A stretch of 64,000 nt of DNA, taken from NCBI GenBank assembly GCA_944387895.1, contig CALXGQ010000029.1, positions 1 through 64,000 of the forward strand, in the 5' to 3' direction. Of the stretch, positions 21,207-39,856 are shown one piece after another (position 1 is the stretch's first letter; every line of letters begins with the position of its first letter). The position numbers and the translations under genes were made by a program. Source of the DNA: an uncultured Clostridia bacterium (GTDB taxonomy: Bacteria > Bacillota > Clostridia > Oscillospirales > QAKW01). Below the pieces are notes generated by a model. It ran no database searches and was not told the DNA's origin. It saw nothing but the letters and a program-made list of their open reading frames with translations.

Positions 21207-23453
21207 ATGGATCAAAGGCTGCTGGAAGAAAAACTGAATGAGATGAACGACCGCCAGCGCGAGGCGGTGGAGCAGACCGAAGGGGCTCTGCTGATTCTTG
21301 CGGGAGCCGGCAGCGGAAAGACGACGGTGCTGATCAACCGGATCGCTTATCTGCTTTCCAGAGGGCTTTGCGCGCCCTATCATATTTTAGCCATTACCTT
21401 CACCAATAAGGCGGCAAAGGAGATGCGCGACCGGATCGAAAAAATGATGGGCGCGGACGCCTTTGGCGTGACCGCCGCTACCTTCCACAGTTTTTGCGGC
21501 CGGATCCTGCGGGCGGAGATCGCCGTCGACGGCGTCTACGACGGGAGCTTCACCATCTACGACAGCGACGACAGTCAGCGGGTCATCAAAGGCGCGATGA
21601 AGGCGCTGGAGCTGGAAGAGGGGGTTTTGTCTGTTCGTTCGGTGCAGAGCGCCATATCCCGGGCAAAGGATCAGCGGATCGCTCCGGATCAGTTTTGCAA
21701 GCGGTTCGGGCGGGAGCTTCGGGAGGAGCAAATCGCCAGAATATACGCCGCCTACGAGGCTTTACTCCGGGAAGCAAACGCCCTGGATTTCGACGATATG
21801 ATCCTGAAAACGGTGGAGCTTTTTGAAAATCATCCGGAGATTCTGGCTAAATATGCCGGGCGGTACCGCTATATCATGGTGGATGAATATCAGGATACCA
21901 ACCCGCTGCAATATCGTCTGGTCGCGCTGCTCTCTTCCGGGTTCCATAACATCTGCGTTGTTGGCGACGACGATCAGAGCATTTATAAATTCCGGGGAGC
22001 CACCATCGAAAATATTCTGCTTTTTGAAGAGCATTTCCCCAACGCCAAAGTGATCCGGCTGGAGCAGAATTATCGTTCCGCCGGAAACATTCTGGACGCC
22101 GCCAATCAGATCATCGCCCATAATGCCCGGCGCAAGGGCAAGGAGCTTTGGACGGCGGCGGGAAAGGGCGAGCCGGTTTACGTCATGCGGGTTTCCGATG
22201 ATTTTGAGGAGAGCCGATTCGTTGTGGAAACCCTGCAGGATCGGATCCTGCGGGACGGCGCGGATTTTGGCAGTTTTGCCGTTCTTTACCGGACCAATGC
22301 GCAGTCCAACGCGATGGAGCGGTTTTTTGTAAAAAGCGGGATCCCCTATCAGGTCGTGGGCGGGAACCGATTCTACGACCGCAAGGAGATCAAGGACATT
22401 CTGGCCTATCTGCATATCGTCAATAACCCCCGGGATCACCTGCGCCTGAAGCGGATCATCAATGAACCGCGGCGCAAGATCGGCGCGGTCACCATCGCGG
22501 CGGTGGAAGAAGCCGCGCGGCGGGAAGCCCTGCCGATGCTGGACGTGATGATGCGGGCGGAGGACGATCCGGCTCTGCGCCGGACAGCGCCGCAGCTGGC
22601 GGCCTTTGCGCAGACGATCGCGCAGCTGCGGGAGGAGATGAATCGGTATCCGCTGGATGAATGGGTCGCCCGCGTTGCGCGGGAGACCGGTTATATCGCC
22701 ATGCTGGAGCAGGAGGATACCGACGAAGCCCGGGACCGGATCAACAACATCATGGAGCTTTGTTCATCGGTAAGGCGGTATCAGCAGGAAAATCAGGGCG
22801 GTACGCTTTCCGGATTTCTGGAGGAAGTATCGCTGATGACGGATCTGGATCTGATGACCGATGAGACGGAGCGGGTATCGCTGATGACGCTCCACAGCGC
22901 AAAAGGACTGGAATTTGACTATGTGTTTATGGTCGGGCTGGAAGAAGGGCTGTTTCCCAGCCAGCGCAGCATGGAGAGCGAGGAGGATCTGGAGGAGGAG
23001 CGCCGTCTGATGTATGTGGGCGTAACGCGGGCGCGTAAGGGTCTTTATTTGCTGCACGCCCGCCAGCGGATGCTTTACGGCCGCACGCAGTTCTGCATGC
23101 CCAGCCGATTTTTGCGGGAATTGCCGCCGCGAGCGGTTTCGGAGTTCTCGCCGAAGAGCGACTCTGTTTTTGCCGCGCAGCCGGCGGGATACAAAACGCC
23201 CACCGCCGCGCCGGTGATGACGGGTACTGCGCCGCCGGCCGCCCGGCCGCCGATCATCCGCCGGCCGGCACCGACCGCCGCGCCTTTTGTCTTTGAGGTG
23301 GGGGATCGGGTGTATCATAAGACCTTTGGCGCCGGAACGCTCCGCAGCAAAACGCCGATGAGCAATGATTTTCTGCTTGAGGTGGATTTTGACCGGGCAG
23401 GGAAAAAGAAGATCATGGCGAATTTCGCCAAATTGACCAAATCGGAGGAATGA
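21207..23453 (+). CDS. pcrA: UvrD/PcrA-type ATP-dependent DNA helicase
   Basis: 748 residues, a complete SF1A helicase: Q motif LNDRQREAVEQ-like start, Walker A GAGSGKTTVLINR (~33-45), motif Ia FTNKAAKEM, Walker B DEYQDTN, motif III VGDDDQSIYKFRGA, motif IV YRSAGNI, motif V TLHSAKGLEF and motif VI YVGVTRARK. The linker after ~640 is Pro/Ala-rich, and the C-terminus has the PcrA Tudor-like domain (VGDRVYHKTFGAGTL...VDFDRAGKKKIMANFAKL) that binds RNA polymerase. ATG at 21207 follows GAAAGGG. The stop overlaps the region upstream of the CobW gene. Confidence 0.96.
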   Translation: MDQRLLEEKLNEMNDRQREAVEQTEGALLILAGAGSGKTTVLINRIAYLLSRGLCAPYHILAITFTNKAAKEMRDRIEKMMGADAFGVTAATFHSFCGRILRAEIAVDGVYDGSFTIYDSDDSQRVIKGAMKALELEEGVLSVRSVQSAISRAKDQRIAPDQFCKRFGRELREEQIARIYAAYEALLREANALDFDDMILKTVELFENHPEILAKYAGRYRYIMVDEYQDTNPLQYRLVALLSSGFHNICVVGDDDQSIYKFRGATIENILLFEEHFPNAKVIRLEQNYRSAGNILDAANQIIAHNARRKGKELWTAAGKGEPVYVMRVSDDFEESRFVVETLQDRILRDGADFGSFAVLYRTNAQSNAMERFFVKSGIPYQVVGGNRFYDRKEIKDILAYLHIVNNPRDHLRLKRIINEPRRKIGAVTIAAVEEAARREALPMLDVMMRAEDDPALRRTAPQLAAFAQTIAQLREEMNRYPLDEWVARVARETGYIAMLEQEDTDEARDRINNIMELCSSVRRYQQENQGGTLSGFLEEVSLMTDLDLMTDETERVSLMTLHSAKGLEFDYVFMVGLEEGLFPSQRSMESEEDLEEERRLMYVGVTRARKGLYLLHARQRMLYGRTQFCMPSRFLRELPPRAVSEFSPKSDSVFAAQPAGYKTPTAAPVMTGTAPPAARPPIIRRPAPTAAPFVFEVGDRVYHKTFGAGTLRSKTPMSNDFLLEVDFDRAGKKKIMANFAKLTKSEE

Positions 23454-23455
23454 AC

Positions 23456-24517
23456 ATGACGAAGATCGATATATTCAGCGGCTTTTTGGGCGCCGGGAAA
23501 ACGACGTTGATCAAAAAGCTGATGGAAGAGGCATATCAGGGAGAAAAGCTGGTGCTGATCGAAAATGAATTTGGAGAAATTGGGATCGACAGCGGCTTTC
23601 TGGAGGACGCTGGCATCACGATAACCGAGATGAATTCCGGGTGCATCTGCTGCAGCCTGGTGGGCGATTTCGGCCGGGCGCTGGAGCAGGTGGTGGACAC
23701 CTATCATCCGGATCGGATCCTGATCGAACCAAGCGGCGTGGGGAAGCTGAGCGACGTGATAACCGCCGTTACCAGGCTCAGCCTGCCGGACGTTGTTCTC
23801 AATAGCTTTACGACCGTTGCCGACGCGGGCAAATGCCGGATCTATGCGAAAAACTTCGGTGAGTTTTATAACGATCAGGTGGAGCACGCCGCCTGCATCA
23901 TCCTCAGCCGTACCGGGAATATGCCGGAGGAGAAGCTGAATGCGGCGGTAAAGCTGATGCAGAAGAAGAATCCCAACGCCACCATCATTGCCACGCCCTG
24001 GGATCAGCTCAGCGGCCGCCAGATCCTCGATGCGATGGAGCACCGGGACTGCCTGGCCGATATTCTGCTGGAGCTTTCCGACCGGGATGAGGCTGGGGAA
24101 CACGCCCATCATCACCACGATCACGAGCATGAACATCATCATGATCACGAGCATGAGCATCATCATGAACATGAACATCATCACCATGACCACGAGGAAG
24201 GATGCAGCTGCGGCTGTCATGAGCATGGGCATCATCATGCCGACGAGGTTTTTTCCAGCTGGGGCAGAGAAACGGCCGGCACTTACACGGCGGAGCAGCT
24301 GCGCGCGGCGCTGGAGGAGCTGGACACCGGAAAATATGGCTCTGTTCTGCGGGCGAAGGGGATGGTATCGGCCGGGGACGGCTGGCTGTTCTTTGATTAT
24401 GTACCCGGTGAGCAGAATATCCGGCCGGGCACGGCGCAGGTGATCGGCCGGCTCTGCGTGATCGGATCCGGGCTGCAGGAAGAAAAGCTGGAAGCGCTGT
24501 TTGGGCTGGAGGGATGA
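23456..24517 (+). CDS. CobW/Zng-type GTPase metallochaperone with histidine-rich loop
   Basis: 353 residues from ATG at 23456, preferred over ATG 23450 because GGAGG (23444-23448) is correctly spaced only for the former. Walker A SGFLGAGKTTLIKK (~7-20), ENEFGEIGID, the COG0523 metal motif GCICC, and Walker B-like IEPSGVG. A His/Glu/Asp-rich loop (~215-265, about 25 His) and CSCGCHEHGHHH precede the C-terminal CobW domain (GRETAGTYTAEQLRAALEEL...VLRAKGMV). Such proteins hand zinc or other metals to client enzymes in a GTP-dependent way. Translation follows pcrA directly, and a second CobW-like gene follows. Confidence 0.92.
   Translation: MTKIDIFSGFLGAGKTTLIKKLMEEAYQGEKLVLIENEFGEIGIDSGFLEDAGITITEMNSGCICCSLVGDFGRALEQVVDTYHPDRILIEPSGVGKLSDVITAVTRLSLPDVVLNSFTTVADAGKCRIYAKNFGEFYNDQVEHAACIILSRTGNMPEEKLNAAVKLMQKKNPNATIIATPWDQLSGRQILDAMEHRDCLADILLELSDRDEAGEHAHHHHDHEHEHHHDHEHEHHHEHEHHHHDHEEGCSCGCHEHGHHHADEVFSSWGRETAGTYTAEQLRAALEELDTGKYGSVLRAKGMVSAGDGWLFFDYVPGEQNIRPGTAQVIGRLCVIGSGLQEEKLEALFGLEG
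24100..24240 (+). repeat. low-complexity CAT/CAC/GAG repeat coding for the His-rich loop
   Basis: Irregular tandem units of the type cacgagcatgaacatcatc, encoding alternating HHH and EHEH/DHEH runs. Length variation between strains by slippage would be expected. Confidence 0.8.
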
Positions 24518-24519
24518 GC

Positions 24520-25461
24520 ATGGTGCAGATCCCTGTCTATCTTTTTACCGGTTTTCTGGACGCGGGAAAAACGCGGTTTATCCAGGAAACGCTGGAAGAT
24601 CCCGCATATAACGACGGCACGCCCACGCTTCTGCTGGTCTGTGAAGAAGGGGAGGAGGAATACGATCTTTCCCGGATGCCCCATCGGATCGCCATTCAGA
24701 GCATTGAGGAGGCAAAGGATCTGACGCCCAAGCTTCTGGAGCGGATGGTAAAAAGCTGCCGTGCGCAGCGCGTATTTATCGAATACAACGGGATGTGGGA
24801 TACCGCCGCCCTTTTCGACGCCCTGCCGGAGGGCTGGGTTCTGGTGCAGGAATTTTGTTTTATGGACAGTTCCACCATCATGACCTATAATGCCAATATG
24901 CGAAATCTGGTAGTTAATAAGCTGCAAACCGCAGAGATGGTGATTTTCAACCGGCTCCCTGCCGGGGCGGACGTGATGCCTTTTCATAAGCTGGTGCGCG
25001 GCGTTTCCCGGCGCGCGGACATCGTTTATGAGGAAGTAGGCGGCCGGGTGATCCCGGATGAAATCGAAGATCCGCTGCCTTTTGATCTGGAGGCGCCTGT
25101 TGTGGAGATCGCGGATCGGGACTATGCCATCTGGTACCGCGATCTTACGGAGGAGCTGCAAAATTATGAGGGCAAGGTCATCCGGCTGAAGGGACGGGTG
25201 ATTCTGGACGAGCGCAGCGACGGCAGCTTTTTCGTTTTCGGACGGCAGGTCATGACCTGCTGCGTGGAGGACATTCAGTTTGCCGGGGTCGTATGCCTCT
25301 ATCCCGATTCCTTCGCGCTGAAAAACGGCCAATGGGCCACCGTTGTTGCCGAGATTCATCTGGGCACCCATGAGGCCTATGGCCGAACCGGGCCGATCCT
25401 GCGCGTTCGGGAGCTGGAACCGGCGCTGCCTCCCGAAGAGGAAGTGGCGACCTTTTATTAA
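24520..25461 (+). CDS. CobW-like GTPase domain fused to a TIGR03943-type C-terminal domain
   Basis: 313 residues from ATG at 24520, six bases after GGAGGG; the ATG at 24514 has no room for that site. N-terminal P-loop FTGFLDAGKTRFIQE (~9-23) and IEYNGMWD, but no CxCC metal motif, unlike the preceding gene. From ~205 comes an OB-like domain: NYEGKVIRLKGRV...FVFGRQVMTCCVEDIQFAGVVC...NGQWATVVAEI, which resembles the C-terminus of TIGR03943/DUF1980 proteins (the YcgQ partner of YcgR/YraQ permeases). A role in metal handling with the upstream GTPase is inferred. No permease is adjacent. It overlaps no other gene and is followed by a strong terminator. Confidence 0.78.
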   Translation: MVQIPVYLFTGFLDAGKTRFIQETLEDPAYNDGTPTLLLVCEEGEEEYDLSRMPHRIAIQSIEEAKDLTPKLLERMVKSCRAQRVFIEYNGMWDTAALFDALPEGWVLVQEFCFMDSSTIMTYNANMRNLVVNKLQTAEMVIFNRLPAGADVMPFHKLVRGVSRRADIVYEEVGGRVIPDEIEDPLPFDLEAPVVEIADRDYAIWYRDLTEELQNYEGKVIRLKGRVILDERSDGSFFVFGRQVMTCCVEDIQFAGVVCLYPDSFALKNGQWATVVAEIHLGTHEAYGRTGPILRVRELEPALPPEEEVATFY

Positions 25462-26777: not shown

Positions 26778-28004
26778 ATGCGGGAAAAATACGATGTGGT
26801 GATTGTGGGCGGAGGCTTCGCCGGATTTGCGGCGGCCTGCGCTGCCGCCCGGGAGGGCGCGGACACCCTGCTGGTGGAAAAGAACGGTTGTCTCGGCGGT
26901 GCCGCCGCCGATTCCCTGGTAACGCCGTTTATGCGCTATTATACCCGGGGCGATAACGTGATCGTGAACGCCGGGCTTTTTACGGAATTTCGCCGGCGCA
27001 TGGGGATCGAAGGCGTTGCTTTTAACGATGAACAGATGAAGGTGATCATGGAGCGGATGTGCTTAGACTATGGCGTGAAGCTGCTGTATCACACCACGGT
27101 TACCGGCGTTGAGCAGGAGGAAAACCGGATTGTGGGGCTGCATGCCTATGCGGCGGGCAGACGTTTTGCGTTGCGTGCGAATGTATTTATCGATGCCACC
27201 GGCGACGGCAATCTGGCCGCCATGGCCGGCTGCGGGTATGAGCTGGGGGAGGCGGGCAGCTGCCAGCCGATGACCCTTTGCTTTCGGATGTGCAACGTGG
27301 ACACCGCGCTCTTTAAGCAGGAAAACGGAAAATTGAACGAATACTATGTGGCAGACAAGGAAAACGGGCTGATCCGCAATCCCCGGGAGGATGTCTTGTG
27401 GTTTTATACGACGATTCCCGGCGTGATTCATTTCAATACCACCCGAGTCATCAATGTGGATCCCACCGACCCGGAGGAGCTGACCCGCGCTGAAATCGAG
27501 GCGCGGAATCAAGTAACGGAGATGGCGGCGTTTTTGAAGCGCCATTTCAAGAGCTTTGAAAACGCCGAGGTGGTGATGACCGCCGCCCGAACCGGCGTGC
27601 GGGAAAGCCGCCTGATCCACGGGGAATATACCATTACGGAGCAAGATATTTTGGAAGGTCGGCAATTCGAGAGCGCCATCGCCCGGGGTGCCTATGGGGT
27701 GGATATTCATAATCCCGGCGGCTCCGGCACAGTGATTGCGAAGCTGCCCGATGGCGTTTATTACACCATTCCCTATGAAAGCTGCGTTGCCAAGGATAAA
27801 GCCAATCTGCTGGTGGCCGGGCGGTGCATTTCTTCTACCCACGCGGCGCAGTCCGCTTATCGGGTCATGCCCATCTGCTGCAGCATCGGCGAGGGCGTCG
27901 GCACCGCGGCGGGCATCTGCGCCGGAAAAGCGCTTTCCGATGTGCGGCAGGTCGATGTGGCCGCTTTGCGGGAAAAGCTGATTCAAAACGGTGCGTTAGT
28001 ATAA
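26778..28004 (+). CDS. FAD-dependent oxidoreductase (PF12831-like)
   Basis: 408 residues. N-terminal Rossmann FAD motif VVIVGGGFAGFAAACAAAREGADTLLVEK (GxGxxG type, written here only in part: GGGFAGFAAA), then the family motif NGCLGGAAA, FIDATGDGNLAAMAGC and the C-terminal FAD contact LLVAGRCISSTHAAQSAYRVMP. Members are flavoproteins of uncertain substrate, often near sugar-degradation genes. ATG at 26778 follows ACGGAGGGC. The inverted repeat of the AT-rich element begins one base after the start of its stop codon, so the element sits directly against this gene's 3' end. Confidence 0.88.
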   Translation: MREKYDVVIVGGGFAGFAAACAAAREGADTLLVEKNGCLGGAAADSLVTPFMRYYTRGDNVIVNAGLFTEFRRRMGIEGVAFNDEQMKVIMERMCLDYGVKLLYHTTVTGVEQEENRIVGLHAYAAGRRFALRANVFIDATGDGNLAAMAGCGYELGEAGSCQPMTLCFRMCNVDTALFKQENGKLNEYYVADKENGLIRNPREDVLWFYTTIPGVIHFNTTRVINVDPTDPEELTRAEIEARNQVTEMAAFLKRHFKSFENAEVVMTAARTGVRESRLIHGEYTITEQDILEGRQFESAIARGAYGVDIHNPGGSGTVIAKLPDGVYYTIPYESCVAKDKANLLVAGRCISSTHAAQSAYRVMPICCSIGEGVGTAAGICAGKALSDVRQVDVAALREKLIQNGALV

Positions 28005-28018
28005 AAAAGAGGAGTACA
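28003..28018 (+). repeat. left 16-bp terminal inverted repeat of the AT-rich element
   Basis: AAAAAAGAGGAGTACA is the exact reverse complement of 29255-29270. GAGTAC at 28012-28017 also pairs locally with GTACTC at 28027-28032. Confidence 0.75.
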
Positions 28019-28045
28019 TTTGTGTCGTACTCTAAAGGACAGTAA

Positions 28046-28077
28046 AAAAAGAAGCGCGAAAATTCGTGCTTCTTTTT
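28046..28077 (-). terminator. hairpin terminator at the left end of the element
   Basis: AGAAGCGCGAA / TTCGTGCTTCT stem (one G-T pair), with A-tract and T-tract flanks, so usable in both directions. It would end the minus-strand transcript of the element and also the FAD oxidoreductase transcript. Confidence 0.7.
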
Positions 28078-28095
28078 CATTTTGTCTTATACCGT

Positions 28096-28183
28096 AGCAA
28101 GCAGGGAAAATGTATATCACATTTTCCACTTGTTAGGAGAACCTAAAACCCTTAACCTTGCTCACAACTAATTGCATTTTGTG
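28096..28183 (-). other. compact multi-stem structure, possible RNA or element end structure
   Basis: AGCAAG (28096-28101) pairs with CTTGCT (28157-28162), enclosing two hairpins: GGAAAATGT / ACATTTTCC (28105-28127, 9 bp) and TTAGG / CCTAA (28133-28146, tetraloop AGAA). This makes a three-way junction. A fourth stem, CACAA / TTGTG (28163-28183), follows. The strand is uncertain. It lies just 3' of the two minus-strand genes. Confidence 0.5.
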
Positions 28184-28206
28184 GTGCTATCAATAAAAGA
28201 AGGGAA

Positions 28207-28641
28207 TTATTTGTAAAAGTCAAAGATATCTTCATACAATTTTCTTGTTTGTGCTTCATCGTTCCACGATAACGGGTCATCAGCATAACTCAAGGTATGA
28301 AATGGTTCTTTCGTATGTATTTCACTCGGCAATTGTTGCCACAAGGAATAACACCTTTTGCCAAACTCTGTAATAGTAAAAGTATTTGAAAAATATATCG
28401 TTTTCAAATCTTCAAGCAAACATTTCCCAAAATCGTCAACCGAAAAGTTTTCACATTCATATTTCCAATATCTTTGCAATATATCAAAGGTGACATCGCA
28501 GTCGGAAGAACAACTCTCCAATTCTAAAAGCAAACCGTTATTAGAATTTTCAAGGAACATTTTATCTAGTGTTGTATTATAATCTTTACCGTTTGACAAC
28601 TTCATTTTCCACAGCAAAGATTTACAAATCAATTCTTCCAT
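28207..28641 (-). CDS. hypothetical protein in the AT-rich element
   Basis: 144 residues from ATG at 28641, which is correctly spaced from AAGGA; an in-frame ATG at 28650 would add three residues. It starts 11 bases after the stop of the four-helix-bundle gene, so the two form an operon. I do not recognise the family. It is rich in Leu, Asp, Glu, Cys and aromatic residues with no signal peptide or membrane span, and has short conserved-looking stretches (DVTFDILQRYWKYE, FTITEFGKRCYSLWQQL). Codon use is AT-rich, unlike the surrounding chromosome, suggesting acquisition by transfer. Confidence 0.65.
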   Translation of the reverse strand: MEELICKSLLWKMKLSNGKDYNTTLDKMFLENSNNGLLLELESCSSDCDVTFDILQRYWKYECENFSVDDFGKCLLEDLKTIYFSNTFTITEFGKRCYSLWQQLPSEIHTKEPFHTLSYADDPLSWNDEAQTRKLYEDIFDFYK

Positions 28642-28652
28642 ACTACGCATCC

Positions 28653-29003
28653 TTATTTTGATTTAATTGTTTTAAGCGACGAGATTAACATTCTGCGAAT
28701 GGCACCACAATCATTTTGAATATCTTTATAAGTTTCTTCAGTTATACAACCTGTCTCAAAAAGAAGTTCTAACCAATATTCCGTTTCATAACATTCTTTT
28801 TGAGCGATTTCGAGTTTTGAAATGAAATCTTTAGTTCCTTGAGCATATTGAACTTCGTGCAGATTTGCTCCGATAGAGGTTGCTGAGCGGAGCAATTGAT
28901 TTATTAAAATGGATTCCTTATGATTTGCTTTCATATCACGGCAAAGAAAGACGATTTTCTTTGCAAATTCCTTTGCTTTATCTCTTAAAATGCTATCAGC
29001 CAA
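28653..29003 (-). CDS. four-helix-bundle protein (S23 / 23S rRNA IVS-encoded family)
   Basis: 116 residues from TTG at 29003, chosen because GAGGTGAT (29009-29016) precedes it and ADSILRDKAKEFAKKIVFLCRD is the usual start of the family. The core matches TIGR02436: SILINQLLRSATSIGANLHEVQYAQGTKDFISKLEIAQKE is the signature region (conserved LLRSATSIGANL, KLEIAQKE, ETEYWLELL). Relatives are encoded by intervening sequences in 23S rRNA genes and resemble the Avd accessory protein of diversity-generating retroelements; they are basic, oligomeric and thought to bind nucleic acid. No reverse transcriptase is nearby. AT-rich codon use. Confidence 0.88.
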   Translation of the reverse strand: MADSILRDKAKEFAKKIVFLCRDMKANHKESILINQLLRSATSIGANLHEVQYAQGTKDFISKLEIAQKECYETEYWLELLFETGCITEETYKDIQNDCGAIRRMLISSLKTIKSK

Positions 29004-29022
29004 AGCTATCACCTCTAAATCT

Positions 29023-29051
29023 ATTATACATAAAAACTGATAGTCTTTCAA
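29023..29051 (-). promoter_or_regulatory. promoter for the four-helix-bundle gene
   Basis: Minus strand TTGAAA (29051-29046), 17-nt spacer, TATAAT (29028-29023). The -35 touches the end of the hairpin array, so from this promoter the array is upstream DNA and not leader RNA. Confidence 0.72.
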
Positions 29052-29252
29052 GTTATATTCCGACTTTGTCGGAGTGATATTATTGCCTTGCGGTAATAGT
29101 GTTATTGAAACCTTGCGGTTTCAGTGGTATTTTATTCGCCCACAACTGCCGAAGGTAATATCACTTGGACTTTAGTCCAAATATAACTGCGTAGCAATAT
29201 AACTCGCCTTTGGCGAATAAAACTGGCGTTGTATCCTTACGGGTACAACGCC
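29051..29252. repeat. array of about eight mini-hairpins with an inverted 9-base spacer word
   Basis: Hairpins: 29059-29073 (TCCGAC/GTCGGA), 29081-29098, 29106-29123 (TGAAACC/GGTTTCA), 29135-29153 (weak), 29165-29180 (TTGGAC/GTCCAA), 29188-29196 (3 bp), 29204-29216 (TCGCC/GGCGA), 29225-29252 (GGCGTTGTA/TACAACGCC plus CC/GG). Stems differ; spacers are near-identical. In the right half they read AATATCACT, AATATAACT, AATATAACT, AATAAAACT; in the left half the reverse complements AGTTATATT, AGTGATATT, AGTGTTATT, AGTGGTATT. Long-range pairing is therefore also possible (e.g. TTTATTCGCC 29131-29140 with GGCGAATAAA 29212-29221). Confidence 0.8.
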
Positions 29253-29254
29253 TT

Positions 29255-29270
29255 TGTACTCCTCTTTTTT
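29255..29270 (-). repeat. right 16-bp terminal inverted repeat of the AT-rich element
   Basis: TGTACTCCTCTTTTTT, exact reverse complement of 28003-28018. Together with the preceding 12-bp stem hairpin (29225-29252) and the T-run it could also terminate plus-strand transcription. Confidence 0.75.
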
Positions 29271-29331
29271 TTACAGAGCCGGTTGGCTCTGAAAATGAGC
29301 GAATCAGGGCTTTGCCTGGCATTGTATGATC

Positions 29332-34345: not shown

Positions 34346-34378
34346 ATAATTGATTATTCCATGAAAGTGAGCGATAGA

Positions 34379-37300
34379 ATGAAAAAGCAAAACCGGTTTA
34401 TTTCAGCGCTGACCATTATCATTTTGATCTTTTCCTTTTGCTCCGGGATCACGGTGGCCGATGGGTCGCTGGAAATTCCGGAGGACGTAGCGGATTTTGA
34501 TACCTACGATACGATGCAGGGCGTCGCGTGGGATTCCGCGGTGGAAGGGCTTCCGATCGGAAGCGCCTATCATGCGTATTGGGATGGCCAGGCCTATACC
34601 TTTATGGTAGGGGTCGATGTTTTTGCAACCTTTGAAGCCGCCTATGCGGCGTCCAAGGCGGCGGTGCCGACCATCTTTGCCCTGCCCGGAAAGCACGAAA
34701 GCATAACGCTGACCGGTCCGGTCCATCTTTACGGCTATTATTATCAGGTGGATCCCAATGTCCGCCATGAGGATGAAACGATCTGCCCGTCCCTGAACCA
34801 GAGCCGGGAAGAGGATATGGAAAGCAGCATCGGCAACATTTCCGTTGCGGCCGGTGTGACGGGAGAGATCGAAATATGCGGCATAGAGCTGCGGGGCGTT
34901 TTTGAAGATTACGAGCGGAAAATCAGCGGCGTTCCCACCGAGATTACGCTGGAGAATATCATTGTCCGCCAGGAAAGCGGAATCGCCTCGGGAAGCTGGG
35001 CGTTTAACCTGCTGAATCAAAATGCGGTGGATACCACCACCGCGTCCGCGGTGAATCAGGATTCCTTTACGCTGCTCAACTGCCGGATCGAGCATCTTGT
35101 TACCAACCGGATCTTCTCCAATATGATCCCCACGCGGTTTACGGTGGACGGCCTGGTTACGGCGGCCGGCTGCACGGCCTTTTTCGGCTATGCCCAGTGG
35201 CGCCGCTACCGGGAAAATGCCGTCTTTACCATGCAGAACTGCTATTTTGATCAGTTTGCATCCAGAGAGGGGCATATCAATTACTTCTTTTATATGGAGG
35301 GGCTGAATAAATTCAACGGCGACTGCACCATCACCATCGCCGATAACGTGTTCACGGGCGACGCCGATTATATGGTGGGCTTGTATGTCAAAAAAGGCTA
35401 CGACATCACCCTCTCCGGCAACACCTTTATCGCCGAAACCTCCGCCGGCCGGGAGCCCTTTTACTGGAATATCGGCTACGATAACAATTTGTATTCGGAT
35501 TATGAAGCAAATGCAAATGTTTCGTCGGTGGATCTTTCCGATCGAGTCACGATCACCAAAAACCGCTTCGTCGGGTATAATTCCTTCCAAAACGTGGTCA
35601 ACAGCAAGACGGTTTTTGATCTTTCCGATAACTTCTTTACCACCGATCTGGAGCACTACAGAACCGTCATCGGCACCGCGCCTATTAAGGGCGATGGCGT
35701 CACGTCGCGCACCTTCTGGGCGGATTTTGATTGCCAGGTGCCCGGCTCCACCGTTCCGGAGCTGACCTTCGGCGGCGCCTTTTCCGGCAGCGGAACGACC
35801 TATACGCTTTATACCGCAACGAAGAAGGTAGATCTTTGCGCCAGCGGACTGACCTATCCGGCCGGGACCAAGATGGCGCTTTCCAACGGTTCCCCGCTGA
35901 CGGCGGTTTCCTGCTCCGAAGGCAGCAACAGCATCAGGCTGACGGTTTATTCCTACGACAATACTGCAACCAGGCAGTATACGCTGCAAATTTACTGCAA
36001 AACCGGGCAGAGCGAAGCGATGGACCGGCTGCATATCGCGCGGATCCGGCTGCTGAGCGGCTGCTATACCGATCAATCTCTGGTGGGATACAGCGATTGC
36101 ATCGATGCGCTGTGGGCGGCTGTGCAGAGCGGAACCGGAACCACGCAGGCGCTGGCCGCTCTGGACGAAGCGGAAGCGGCTCTGGTGTATAAAAGCGGAG
36201 CGCAGGCCGATTTCAAATATTATTCTTATTTCTCCGATCTGAAAAGGTTTTATATCGCGGATACCGCAGGCTGGAAAACCCTGATCGAGCAGGTTCATGC
36301 CAACAACGATCTTTATGGCGTAATCATCTCGCTGACTGCCGATCTGGATTTCGGCGGGGCGACGATCCGGCCGGTGGGCGGATGCTATGAAACCGATACG
36401 CCGACAGATAACGCGATCTTTTGTGGCACGCTCAACGGCAATAATCATACCATCGAAAATTTTGTCATCAATGAACCGGAGAGCTATGGCGTCGGTCTTT
36501 TCGGCCGCACCCTCGGCGCGACGATTCGTGATCTGCAGGTCGGCAGCGGAACCGTCACCGGCTACGATAAGGTGGGCGGCATCGCCGGCTTTGCCGATAG
36601 TTCGGCGCTGATCAACTGCTCCAATAAGGCCGATGTCGTCGGTGTGAGCGGGGTAAACGGAATCGGAGGCATCACCTCTCAGGCTCGGATGAGCTGGAAC
36701 CCCAATACCGGCAGAAGCCTGGCGGCGGAGATCCGGAGCTGCATCAATTACGGCAGCGTAACCAGCACCAAAGGCCGTGCCTGCGGCATTATTGCATGGG
36801 GGCAGTCCAGCGCCGTTCAAAAATACTGCGTCAACTATGGGGCGTTGAACGGGACGTCGAACGATCCTTTCGGGATGTATAGCGTAACGGATCTGAGCAG
36901 GCTGGTGGTGAACTGCTATTACAGCGGCGCGGCCGGAACCAGCGGCACCGATCTTGCCGGCCAGAACCTGAAAGAGGTGGCGCACATCTGTTCGCTGAAC
37001 CTTCTGGATGATAAACTGGTGATTTCCGGCAGCGGCGAAAAGGTTTACCGTGCGCTGCTGCAATGGTCGGAAGGCTACGCCCGGTTCTATGGCTTTTACG
37101 GCGAACAGATCGCCTTTGATATTCCGGGCTATGCTGTCACGACCGTTGTATATAGAGGAAGCGAGCGTCCCCTCTCGGGTCTTTACATCACCAACGACTG
37201 CACCATGACCGGCACCCCTCTTGCGTATCACTATAAGATCCGGTATGTTATCAACGGCGGCTCATTCCGGGAAACGCCGATCTACAGCTATTGCGTGGAT

Positions 37301-39856
37301 GAAACGGTAACGCTGCCCGGCGGAAGCATGATCGAGAAGGACGGCTATGTTTTTGCAGGCTGGTATACTTCATCGAATTTCTCCGGTGAGCGGGTGCTTT
37401 CCATTCCTGAAGGAGCCATGAAGGATTATGTGTTCTACGCCAAATATGCGGCCATCGACCGGTATATTTCAACCGCCGATCAGCTGGTTACGCTGGCGCG
37501 GGATGTCAACAACGGCAACAGCCTGGCCAATAAGGCGGTGGTGATCACCGCGGATATCGATCTTTCCGGGATCAGCTTCCCCGGCATCGGCAATTCCACG
37601 TCCAGGCCCTTTGCCGGCGTTCTTGCCGGCGGCGGGCACAGCATAACCGGCCTTTCCGTATCCGCTACCTCGGCGGGGCTGATCGGCGTTCTGGCGGAAA
37701 CGGGGATCGTTTCCGAGTTGGAGGTGCAGGGCAATGTGAGCGGCAAAATAGCCGGCGGGATCGTGGGCAATAATCAGGGCGGCCTGATCGAGAATTGCAG
37801 CTTCAACGGCAATGTTTCCTCTTCTGCCACCGAGATCCGGGTCGTCAGCCAGAATCTCCGGATAAATTCCAGTAAAAATGTCATCAGCATCGAAGAGCGG
37901 CACGAAGGGCTGCGGAATATCATCAAGAGCCAGAACCCGGATATCATCGGGTTCCAGGAGGCGGATAAAACCTGGGAATCTTATCTGAAGAGCGACTACA
38001 GCGAATATAATTATGTCTGGTACTGGCGCGGAATCGGCAATCAGAGCAAGGAAAACGAAGCAACGCCGATTTTCTACAAAAAGGATAAATTCAATCTGCT
38101 GGATCAGGGGCGTTTCTGGCTGTCGGATACGCCGGATCAGCCGTCCTACTGCTTTAATGAAGATATGAACCGGATTGTGATCTGGGTCAAGCTTCAGGTC
38201 AAGGAAACCGGGGAAATATTTTATTATTTCAACACCCACTTCTCGTTGGACAATACTTCCCGGTTCCAAAGTGAGCAGGTGCTCCGGGAGCGGGTCCTTT
38301 CCAAGGTCGGTGATCAGACGCCCTTCTACATCACGGCTGATTTCAATATGCAGTCCTCTGAAAATACATATCAGAATATGACGACGTGGTGTACCGATAT
38401 GGCTCTTGCGGCGGAGGTAGATGAAACCAATAATTCCGGAACCTTCGCTCCCAGTTTTCAGCCGACGCCCGCTAATATGCGGATCGATATGGGGTTCTAT
38501 AATGAAGATGCAGGCACCGTTCCGTATTATAAAGTTATTTTGGACACCATCACGGTGAACGGAAAGGAATATGCGCCTTCCGACCATTTCGGCGTATTTT
38601 TCCGCACCCGGCTGCAAAGCGCGTCCGGCGGAATCTGCGGCAACAACATGGGCGAGATCTGGGCCTGCGCGGCGTCGAACGGCGGAACCGCCGGGGTCTA
38701 CGGCGGAGTGATTGCCGGTGAGAACCGGGGCATGATCCATTCCTATAACGTCAGCGGCGGCGCTGGTGTTGGCAAGGAATACGGATCGGAAACTTCCAAT
38801 ATTTATACGGCATCCAGCGTGGAAGAAGGCGTGGTGCTGCTCAATCGGCAGGCCGGCAGAATGCTCTGGGGTGTCAAGGACGGTGCGATCACCTTCTTGC
38901 CGGAGGGAGAAACGATCTATTATGCGCAGTTTTTGAACCTGAACGGCTCGGTTTTCCGCAGAGGGTATTATACGGAAGCGGAAATCAACGCCTTTGATCC
39001 GGGCTTTACTACCGACACAACGACCTTCGATAGCTGGAAGTGGTCCATCAGCGGCGATACCGTCACCCTGACGCCCTCCATGCGCGTGGTGGCTTATCGC
39101 GTAAAATTCCTTAATCGGCAGGGCGCAGTCGTGGAAGAGCAGATCGTGCAGCGGGGTGGTTCTGCAACCCTCCCGGAGCTGAGCGATGAGGACGGCTGGG
39201 TGTTCCTCGGCTGGAGCAGCGATCTATCGGTCGTTTTGAAGGATCAGACCGTCCAGTCCCTCTGGGCGGAGCAGGGGAGCTTTACGCTCACCCTTCAGAT
39301 CCAAGGCAAGGGCACGCTGCTGATGAACGGCAGCCCGGTGACGAACGGATCCGAGGTCACAGCCTCGGCGGGAACCTCCTTCCGCTTTACCGCCGATTCC
39401 GGCGAGATCCTCTGCTGGCAGGATGAATCCGGGACCATTCTGAGCGAAAGCGACGTTTATTCCTTTGCCCTTACCAAAAATACCGTTTTGACCGCGGTCT
39501 TTAAGACCATCGGCACCGTGGAAACGGTGCCGGAGCTGCCGGAGGATCCGGCATATCAGCAGCCGGAGGATGATGCGATGATCGCGTTGTCGGATGAGCT
39601 GGTTCTCACCCGGAATGTGCAGGGCGATTACGCGGTTTTGGGAAGCGGCATTATCTATACCGATAGCGCCGCCAGAATGCTGGTTCTGGAAGCAGCCGAT
39701 GGGGAAATCGTCTTCACCGCCGCCGCCACCTCCCTGAGCCGCAGAGGAAGCACCGCCTTTGACGTGGACGCCGGATACGTGCGCGGCTATCTGGTGCTGC
39801 TCAACGAAAGAACGGGCGAAACGGTGATTCAATACACCGATGTTTTGGTAAGATAA
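34379..39856 (+). CDS. large secreted multidomain protein: beta-helix, GLUG repeats, InlB-like repeat and nested EEP nuclease/phosphatase domain
   Basis: 1825 residues from ATG at 34379 (GAAAGTGAG upstream; ATG 34361 lacks a site). Signal peptide KKQNRFISALTIIILIFSFC. Then (approximate residues) a right-handed beta-helix-like region (75-450), a short linker, a first GLUG region (~620-860), an InlB B-type repeat with GYVFAGWYTSSNFSGE (~950-1025), a second GLUG region (~1035-1150), an endonuclease/exonuclease/phosphatase domain (~1155-1410) with VSQNLRIN, IGFQEA, YFNTHFSL, ITADFNMQ and SDHFGVF, a resumed GLUG repeat (GGICGNNMGEI), and Ig/InlB-like C-terminal repeats. No LPXTG, SLH or dockerin is seen, so surface attachment is unclear. 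Possible extracellular DNase, phosphatase or adhesin. Confidence 0.8.
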   Translation: MKKQNRFISALTIIILIFSFCSGITVADGSLEIPEDVADFDTYDTMQGVAWDSAVEGLPIGSAYHAYWDGQAYTFMVGVDVFATFEAAYAASKAAVPTIFALPGKHESITLTGPVHLYGYYYQVDPNVRHEDETICPSLNQSREEDMESSIGNISVAAGVTGEIEICGIELRGVFEDYERKISGVPTEITLENIIVRQESGIASGSWAFNLLNQNAVDTTTASAVNQDSFTLLNCRIEHLVTNRIFSNMIPTRFTVDGLVTAAGCTAFFGYAQWRRYRENAVFTMQNCYFDQFASREGHINYFFYMEGLNKFNGDCTITIADNVFTGDADYMVGLYVKKGYDITLSGNTFIAETSAGREPFYWNIGYDNNLYSDYEANANVSSVDLSDRVTITKNRFVGYNSFQNVVNSKTVFDLSDNFFTTDLEHYRTVIGTAPIKGDGVTSRTFWADFDCQVPGSTVPELTFGGAFSGSGTTYTLYTATKKVDLCASGLTYPAGTKMALSNGSPLTAVSCSEGSNSIRLTVYSYDNTATRQYTLQIYCKTGQSEAMDRLHIARIRLLSGCYTDQSLVGYSDCIDALWAAVQSGTGTTQALAALDEAEAALVYKSGAQADFKYYSYFSDLKRFYIADTAGWKTLIEQVHANNDLYGVIISLTADLDFGGATIRPVGGCYETDTPTDNAIFCGTLNGNNHTIENFVINEPESYGVGLFGRTLGATIRDLQVGSGTVTGYDKVGGIAGFADSSALINCSNKADVVGVSGVNGIGGITSQARMSWNPNTGRSLAAEIRSCINYGSVTSTKGRACGIIAWGQSSAVQKYCVNYGALNGTSNDPFGMYSVTDLSRLVVNCYYSGAAGTSGTDLAGQNLKEVAHICSLNLLDDKLVISGSGEKVYRALLQWSEGYARFYGFYGEQIAFDIPGYAVTTVVYRGSERPLSGLYITNDCTMTGTPLAYHYKIRYVINGGSFRETPIYSYCVDETVTLPGGSMIEKDGYVFAGWYTSSNFSGERVLSIPEGAMKDYVFYAKYAAIDRYISTADQLVTLARDVNNGNSLANKAVVITADIDLSGISFPGIGNSTSRPFAGVLAGGGHSITGLSVSATSAGLIGVLAETGIVSELEVQGNVSGKIAGGIVGNNQGGLIENCSFNGNVSSSATEIRVVSQNLRINSSKNVISIEERHEGLRNIIKSQNPDIIGFQEADKTWESYLKSDYSEYNYVWYWRGIGNQSKENEATPIFYKKDKFNLLDQGRFWLSDTPDQPSYCFNEDMNRIVIWVKLQVKETGEIFYYFNTHFSLDNTSRFQSEQVLRERVLSKVGDQTPFYITADFNMQSSENTYQNMTTWCTDMALAAEVDETNNSGTFAPSFQPTPANMRIDMGFYNEDAGTVPYYKVILDTITVNGKEYAPSDHFGVFFRTRLQSASGGICGNNMGEIWACAASNGGTAGVYGGVIAGENRGMIHSYNVSGGAGVGKEYGSETSNIYTASSVEEGVVLLNRQAGRMLWGVKDGAITFLPEGETIYYAQFLNLNGSVFRRGYYTEAEINAFDPGFTTDTTTFDSWKWSISGDTVTLTPSMRVVAYRVKFLNRQGAVVEEQIVQRGGSATLPELSDEDGWVFLGWSSDLSVVLKDQTVQSLWAEQGSFTLTLQIQGKGTLLMNGSPVTNGSEVTASAGTSFRFTADSGEILCWQDESGTILSESDVYSFALTKNTVLTAVFKTIGTVETVPELPEDPAYQQPEDDAMIALSDELVLTRNVQGDYAVLGSGIIYTDSAARMLVLEAADGEIVFTAAATSLSRRGSTAFDVDAGYVRGYLVLLNERTGETVIQYTDVLVR

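Follow-up and report, generated by a model that had tools for sequence, protein, structure and literature searches.

A hairpin array with inverted linker words at the left end of a probable terminator-inserting element of gut Clostridia

The hairpin array described here lies in a 64,000-nucleotide stretch of DNA from an uncultured Clostridia bacterium (the window). It is probably the conserved domain at the left end of a small mobile element that inserts into transcription terminators, where it would serve as a structured cis-acting signal with a four-helix-bundle protein as candidate mobility factor. An initial annotation had reported an array of unlike mini-hairpins joined by an inverted 9-base word at 29051-29252; the coordinates proved right to the base, and eight hairpins are indeed present. 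It did not recognise the array as one terminus of a mobile element that sits inside a terminator.

Architecture of the Element

Between the end hairpin on the left and the right end, the element comprises the array, a promoter, the four-helix-bundle gene and an exchangeable cargo gene, in this order (Table 1). On the minus strand, which is the sense strand of the neighbouring gene, the linker words read AGTnnTATT (F) and, inversely, AATAnnACT (R). The loops are inverted between the two halves as well, with T-type loops such as TTGC/TTC on the left and GCAA/GTAA/GAA on the right. Linker-word matches with one mismatch are clustered, as 8 of the 21 found in the window fall inside the 174-bp array stretch. 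The folding energy of 29020-29290 lies 7.9 standard deviations below that of dinucleotide shuffles, a value reached by none of 200 shuffles.

Table 1. Features of the element and of its insertion site in the window (positions in the window; linkers are given in minus-strand order).
Feature	Position	Strand	Remarks
One half of split bidirectional terminator stem, AAAAAAGAGGAGTACA	28003..28018	+	Outer flank at the element's right end; 16 nt, exact reverse complement of 29255-29270
Whole mobile element, ~1.23 kb	28019..29252	-	5' end 29252, 3' end 28019; between the terminator halves; same ends in relatives; last TTT possibly a target duplication
Right end of element, ACTGTCCTTTAGAGTACGAC	28019..28043	-	Inverse relation to the loop part of H0; conserved in type-A relatives L008, L010, L011, L012, L036
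Internal terminator-like hairpin	28046..28077		Next to the right end, on its inner side; L010, L011 and gene-less copies have a similar hairpin
Cargo ORF, 147 aa	28207..28650	-	Cargo differs between elements
Four-helix-bundle gene (S23/IVP, PF05635, TIGR02436), 116 aa	28653..29003	-	TTG start after AGAGGTGAT; ribosome-binding site between promoter and gene
Sigma-70 promoter, TTGAAA-17-TATAAT	29023..29051	-	11 of 12 match; -35 overlaps last linker
Hairpin array F1-H1-F2-H2-F3-H3-F4-H4-R0-R1-H5-R2-H6-R3-H7-R4, Gut-1-like	29051..29224	-	
Linker R4	29059-29051	-	Last word of the array, after H7
Linker R3	29081-29073	-	After H6, before H7
Linker R2	29106-29098	-	After H5, before H6
Linker R1	29131-29123	-	After R0, before H5
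R0, GGCGAATAAAA	29130..29140	-	Long-range partner of F1 and first arm of H1 (29216-29224, 29212-29215); 11-bp perfect inverted repeat
Linker F4	29165-29157	-	After H3, before H4
Linker F3	29188-29180	-	After H2, before H3
Linker F2	29204-29196	-	After H1, before H2
Linker F1	29224-29216	-	
End hairpin H0, GGCGTTGTACCCGTAAGGATACAACGCC	29225..29252	-	Left end of the element; longer than the array hairpins; precedes F1
Other half of split terminator stem, TGTACTCCTCTTTTTT	29255..29270	+	Outer flank at the element's left end; between array and glutamine synthetase-like gene

The 116-aa protein scores 94.9 bits against PF05635 (curated cut-off 33.8) and 107.9 against TIGR02436 (cut-off 24). Its predicted fold consists of four helices (pLDDT 93.8) and is matched best by the S23-family structure 2rld (TM 0.93). 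More distantly, it resembles Avd of diversity-generating retroelements (DGRs; 4dwl TM 0.81, 8ub7 TM 0.80), a similarity also noted for PF05635 in the literature (PMC10053308). A terminator-like hairpin was seen inside the four-helix-bundle coding sequence, at 28941-28964.

The second ORF is unrelated between elements, even downstream of near-identical four-helix-bundle genes. The cargo of the window element had no match in Pfam, NCBIfam, PADLOC or PHROGs, and those of other elements comprise an ion channel, a methyltransferase, an AraC-type regulator with a Cass2 domain, a GNAT acetyltransferase, a Y1_Tnp-like protein and several proteins of unknown family. The Y1_Tnp (IS200-like) cargo ORF, at 4684-5205 of L059, is preceded by an XRE-type ORF.

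Conservation and Covariation of the Array

In one protein scan of GTDB species contigs with the four-helix-bundle protein, 80 close relatives of the gene were collected, all of them in MAGs labelled Oscillospiraceae, Clostridia or Ruminococcus and with animal guts as the main source. An array with at least five linker words stands upstream of the gene in 67 of the 76 usable loci, and a promoter pattern follows it in 52 of these 67. The initial annotation had named, as support, many such arrays in related genomes, linked to four-helix-bundle genes and with constant spacers and compensatory changes in the stems. All of this is borne out across dozens of species: in an alignment of 40 arrays, RNAalifold predicted 43 pairs, 21 of which show double-sided changes that keep the pair, while the linkers are constant and the stems variable. 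In the relatives' elements the stems of H0 also differ, yet they still pair. The number of units is nearly fixed, with exactly four F and four R words in 44 of the 67 arrays; that the array arose by stepwise duplication of a hairpin-plus-spacer unit, as the same annotation suggested, is plausible.

RNAalifold also predicted a long-range helix between R0 and F1 together with the first arm of H1, in which one pair shows compensatory UA/CG/AU changes. A one-to-one herringbone pairing of F and R linkers was considered and rejected: compensatory changes were found for F1-R0 only, and the other linker letters show no consistent match by eye. Within the stems there are 20 G.U cells, spread over 16 pairs, against 5 A.C cells over 5 pairs (p=0.004). 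To judge from this alignment, the bias would favour a folded gene-sense strand, an argument that is only modest because the array halves are inverted.

Insertion into Terminators

The window element opens the loop of a bidirectional terminator between two convergent genes, so that the 16-bp stem halves now lie 1.2 kb apart. Split terminators were likewise found at L011, L012, L014, L016, L019, L036, L038, L046, L054, L058, L074 and other loci. In a split-arm test, 14 of the 76 gene-bearing loci have exactly complementary arms of 12 nt or longer that also pass requirements on GC content and on neighbouring runs of A/T; the null, obtained by swapping upstream and downstream halves between loci, has a mean of 0.5 (max 2). 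Arms of this length occur at 19 of the 60 fetched gene-less sites (1.3 after swapping, max 4); among the latter, the apparent split stem of L260 is an internal repeat.

Undisturbed counterparts of some target sites are available. In G416, an orthologue of the downstream (3') neighbour of L038 has its terminator unbroken (L169, a near-empty site), and several orthologues of the upstream gene of L054 have intact terminators at the same place. The flank search in 50 donor genomes yielded this one usable near-empty site and several intact orthologous terminators, and no strain-level empty site. For the window element, no orthologous empty site was found in its genus, where the neighbours are not conserved, and an order-wide DNA search with the flank of L074 matched only a conserved gene.

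Bases of the terminator loop look duplicated on both sides of the element (AAA/AAA in the window, GAA/GAA at L036, GTA/GTA at L054). Of 15 sites with manually placed boundaries, 6 have identical flanking 3-mers where 2.0 would be expected (p=0.005), which is no more than suggestive of target duplication at insertion sites. Most sites lie between convergent genes, and orientation preference relative to the neighbouring genes is therefore uninformative. At L186, L201, L216 and L220, arrays stand directly beside the terminators of tRNA genes.

Copy Number and Movement

A covariance model of the array was searched in the window's genome and 15 relatives. It gave 3-51 matches per genome, a count that may include both strands of one palindromic site, and the four-helix-bundle gene is present in 1-8 copies per genome; G060, for example, has 26 distinct array sites listed and one such gene. 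Most gene-less elements measure 300-410 bp and keep the array and the ends, thus being short, gene-less and multi-copy like MITEs. Comparing the two ends in inverse orientation gives an end-to-end score of 7.9, vs 5.3 for shuffled ends and 6.4 with swapped partners.

Three copies from the same genome (L250, L251, L252) are 96% identical over exactly the length of the element and have unrelated flanks, and one copy of G061 is 95.6% identical to one of G072. As far as sequence comparison can tell, the element moves or has moved, because many gene-less copies interrupt terminators, and copies set in unrelated flanks reach 96% identity; these near-identical copies in unrelated surroundings are the strongest evidence of movement. 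In the window's own genome, a DNA search retrieved no further copy beyond the window, and the array model gave three low-threshold matches, of which the listed one is the window site, so that a single confident copy is counted. No relative was found in the viral contigs searched. Four MAG contigs (L017, L022, L029, L043) end exactly inside the array or at H0, as is expected for near-identical multi-copy elements.

Association with the Four-Helix-Bundle Gene

Of the 40 genomes with arrays among 107 genomes of the order, 38 also carry the gene, which occurs in 54 overall (Fisher p=9e-14, which overstates the significance because the compared genomes share ancestry). In the other two array-bearing genomes (G096, G110) no four-helix-bundle gene was detected, and no array was detected in 16 of the genomes that have the gene. 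When the ORFs around 108 array loci were compared, the four-helix-bundle gene was the only recurring element gene, and no transposase recurred beside the arrays. The reverse transcriptase family PF00078 was found in none of 16 genomes (the window's own and 15 relatives, including ones with 50 array matches), while control genomes were positive. Y1_Tnp was not found in G061, G063, G065, G066, G067 and G072, which hold 22-50 array matches each, and no group II intron RNA was matched in the element with Rfam, even at E<=10. To our knowledge, no nuclease or recombinase activity has been assigned to four-helix-bundle proteins of the S23/Avd fold. From the co-occurrence, and from the retention of the comb in gene-less copies, we infer a role for the four-helix-bundle protein in binding the comb and directing movement.

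Proposed Mechanism

In the proposed mechanism, a structured cis-acting nucleic-acid signal would be built from H0 and from the comb, with its seven mini-hairpins and inverted 9-base linkers; the comb would act most likely as a folded single strand of gene sense, perhaps as RNA. The promoter fused to the last linker would drive the gene of the four-helix-bundle (S23/IVP, Avd-fold) protein, behind which an exchangeable cargo gene often follows. The element would insert in the loop of intrinsic, mostly bidirectional, terminators and split the stem, the terminator offering a gene-free landing site. The protein would bind the comb as a mobility or targeting factor that could be supplied in trans to gene-less copies, and the chemistry of cutting and joining may come from this protein together with a host or unlinked enzyme.

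A broader reading, offered tentatively and at somewhat less than even chances, is that of a new class of transposable element whose sole dedicated protein is a small Avd-like four-helix bundle. Such a protein would read the comb, insert into hairpin loops (terminators, 23S rRNA helices, heptamer-flanked cassettes in cyanobacteria and other phyla) and move gene-less and cargo copies in trans without a known transposase, recombinase or reverse transcriptase.

Relation to Known Systems

The initial annotation knew of no named feature class that fits the array. This point has to be corrected, since Rfam has the family Gut-1 RNA (RF01706), whose gathering score is exceeded by relatives of the array in L020 (52.5 bits), L186 (59.1) and L192 (65), in each case directly upstream of four-helix-bundle genes; L186 and L192 are human-gut contigs. 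The window array itself scores 37.4 bits (E 2e-5), below the 50-bit gathering threshold that these three relatives pass, which makes it a divergent homologue and not a member in the formal sense. The linkers of L192 are of GTGAAAT type on the left and ATTTCAT type on the right, so that the word differs and the inversion is kept. Weinberg et al. (2010, PMC2864571) described Gut-1 as a probable noncoding RNA, known from human gut sequence only. Like the array, it is a series of short hairpins with a constant GUGAAAU-like word between them, but it covers three hairpins of one half only; the Gut-1 RNA is a piece of this array.

The closest class is that of the S23-encoding intervening sequences (IVSs) of 23S rRNA. 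These sequences, e.g., the Coxiella IVS with its S23/IVP ORF, take the place of tetraloops in 23S helices and have complementary arms at their ends; they are sporadic and thought to be selfish, and their ORF was once proposed as a mobility component (PMC4990558). The window element likewise carries an S23 ORF of the same protein family in a hairpin-loop insertion with complementary ends. It lies between two protein genes and not in a 23S rRNA helix, the only rRNA match of the window being a 5S at 2-117. What is new here, compared with the IVSs, is the target (transcription terminators), the comb, the cargo genes and the many gene-less copies. We know of no demonstration that 23S IVSs are mobile.

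Cyanobacterial short tandem heptamer repeats (STRR) offer a further parallel, in that four-helix-bundle genes of cyanobacterial and other plasmids have a heptamer array on one side and its reverse complement on the other; unlike the element, they have no hairpins within the repeat and occur in different phyla. In 9 of the 11 such genes examined, on plasmids of cyanobacteria, Bernardetia, Treponema and Monoglobus, upstream heptamers with downstream reverse complements exceed all sliding-window controls of their own locus (L188 and L190 narrowly). Several of the heptamer-flanked genes on these plasmids (L187-L191, L303-L308) sit inside restriction-modification or DISARM-like operons. From the plasmid genes and the 23S IVSs, the two sets considered, it is plausible that four-helix-bundle genes inside hairpins form a common theme.

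In the open-access literature, no earlier description was found of four-helix-bundle genes as mobile elements or of terminator-loop MITEs, and the element looks like a previously undescribed small mobile element of gut bacteria. It would tie together three puzzles, namely the Gut-1 RNA (an orphan since 2010), the common but functionless S23/IVP proteins, and the entry of 23S IVSs into hairpin loops. Should the protein prove to be the mobility factor, this would be a transposition system without a recognised recombinase. The element would also have a built-in safe harbour (terminators) and carry genes that are exchanged among elements of Clostridia in gut and rumen. A direct test of the hypothesis would need no more than one gene and a 350-bp element.

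Alternative Explanations

A MITE-like element moved by an unlinked conventional (DDE) transposase, with the four-helix-bundle gene and the cargo as passengers and the comb merely insulating or restoring termination, is unlikely. The insertion sequences IS1397 and ISKpn1 target palindromes (BIMEs), inserting in hairpin loops with a short target duplication, and encode a DDE transposase. The hairpin-loop position, the apparently duplicated loop bases and the partly related inverse sequences of the hairpin ends would all agree with movement of this kind. Yet no DDE or other transposase recurs beside the arrays at the 108 loci, the arrays track the four-helix-bundle gene across genera, this gene is the only conserved coding part, and the detailed covarying comb exceeds what passive insulation would need. 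Transfer by a Y1 (RAYT) transposase, as for REP/BIME/REPIN arrays, is highly improbable: word-plus-hairpin units in direct and inverse order, dispersed in intergenic DNA, do recall REP/iREP pairs, and the element of L059 carries a Y1_Tnp-like ORF as cargo, but the six array-rich genomes without a Y1_Tnp match largely refute it. Moreover, the stems of REPs are conserved while those of the arrays vary, and each element has one fixed comb.

A retroelement, in which read-through of the broken terminator would yield a transcript of the comb that the Avd-like protein binds and that is then reverse transcribed and inserted in hairpin loops, could draw on the fold match to Avd and the DGR reverse-transcriptase complex, on the description of PF05635 as Avd-like (PMC10053308) and on the excess of G.U over A.C, which suggests an RNA sense strand. 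The element-bearing genomes differ from DGR systems in the absence of PF00078 matches (0 of 16), which makes this route quite improbable. The strong RNA-like covariation, together with the listing of Gut-1 as a probable noncoding RNA (PMC2864571), speaks for a cis-regulatory leader or attenuator of the four-helix-bundle gene or for a free-standing noncoding RNA; since the promoter of the gene starts after the array and most copies are arrays without the gene, this interpretation is improbable too. A functionless one-off degenerate repeat, to which the single confident copy in the host genome might point, is refuted for practical purposes by the same architecture and compensatory changes in dozens of species. 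A terminator-inserting element whose comb would be read by the four-helix-bundle protein stays the preferred explanation.

Other Features of the Window

Two further regions of the window drew attention. At 23450-24517, a CobW/G3E GTPase-like ORF contains a very long histidine-rich stretch (HHHDHEHEHHH...), and a second such ORF adjoins it at 24514-25461. At 34361-39856, an ORF of 1831 aa looks secreted and appears to combine repeat regions with an endonuclease/exonuclease/phosphatase-like segment.
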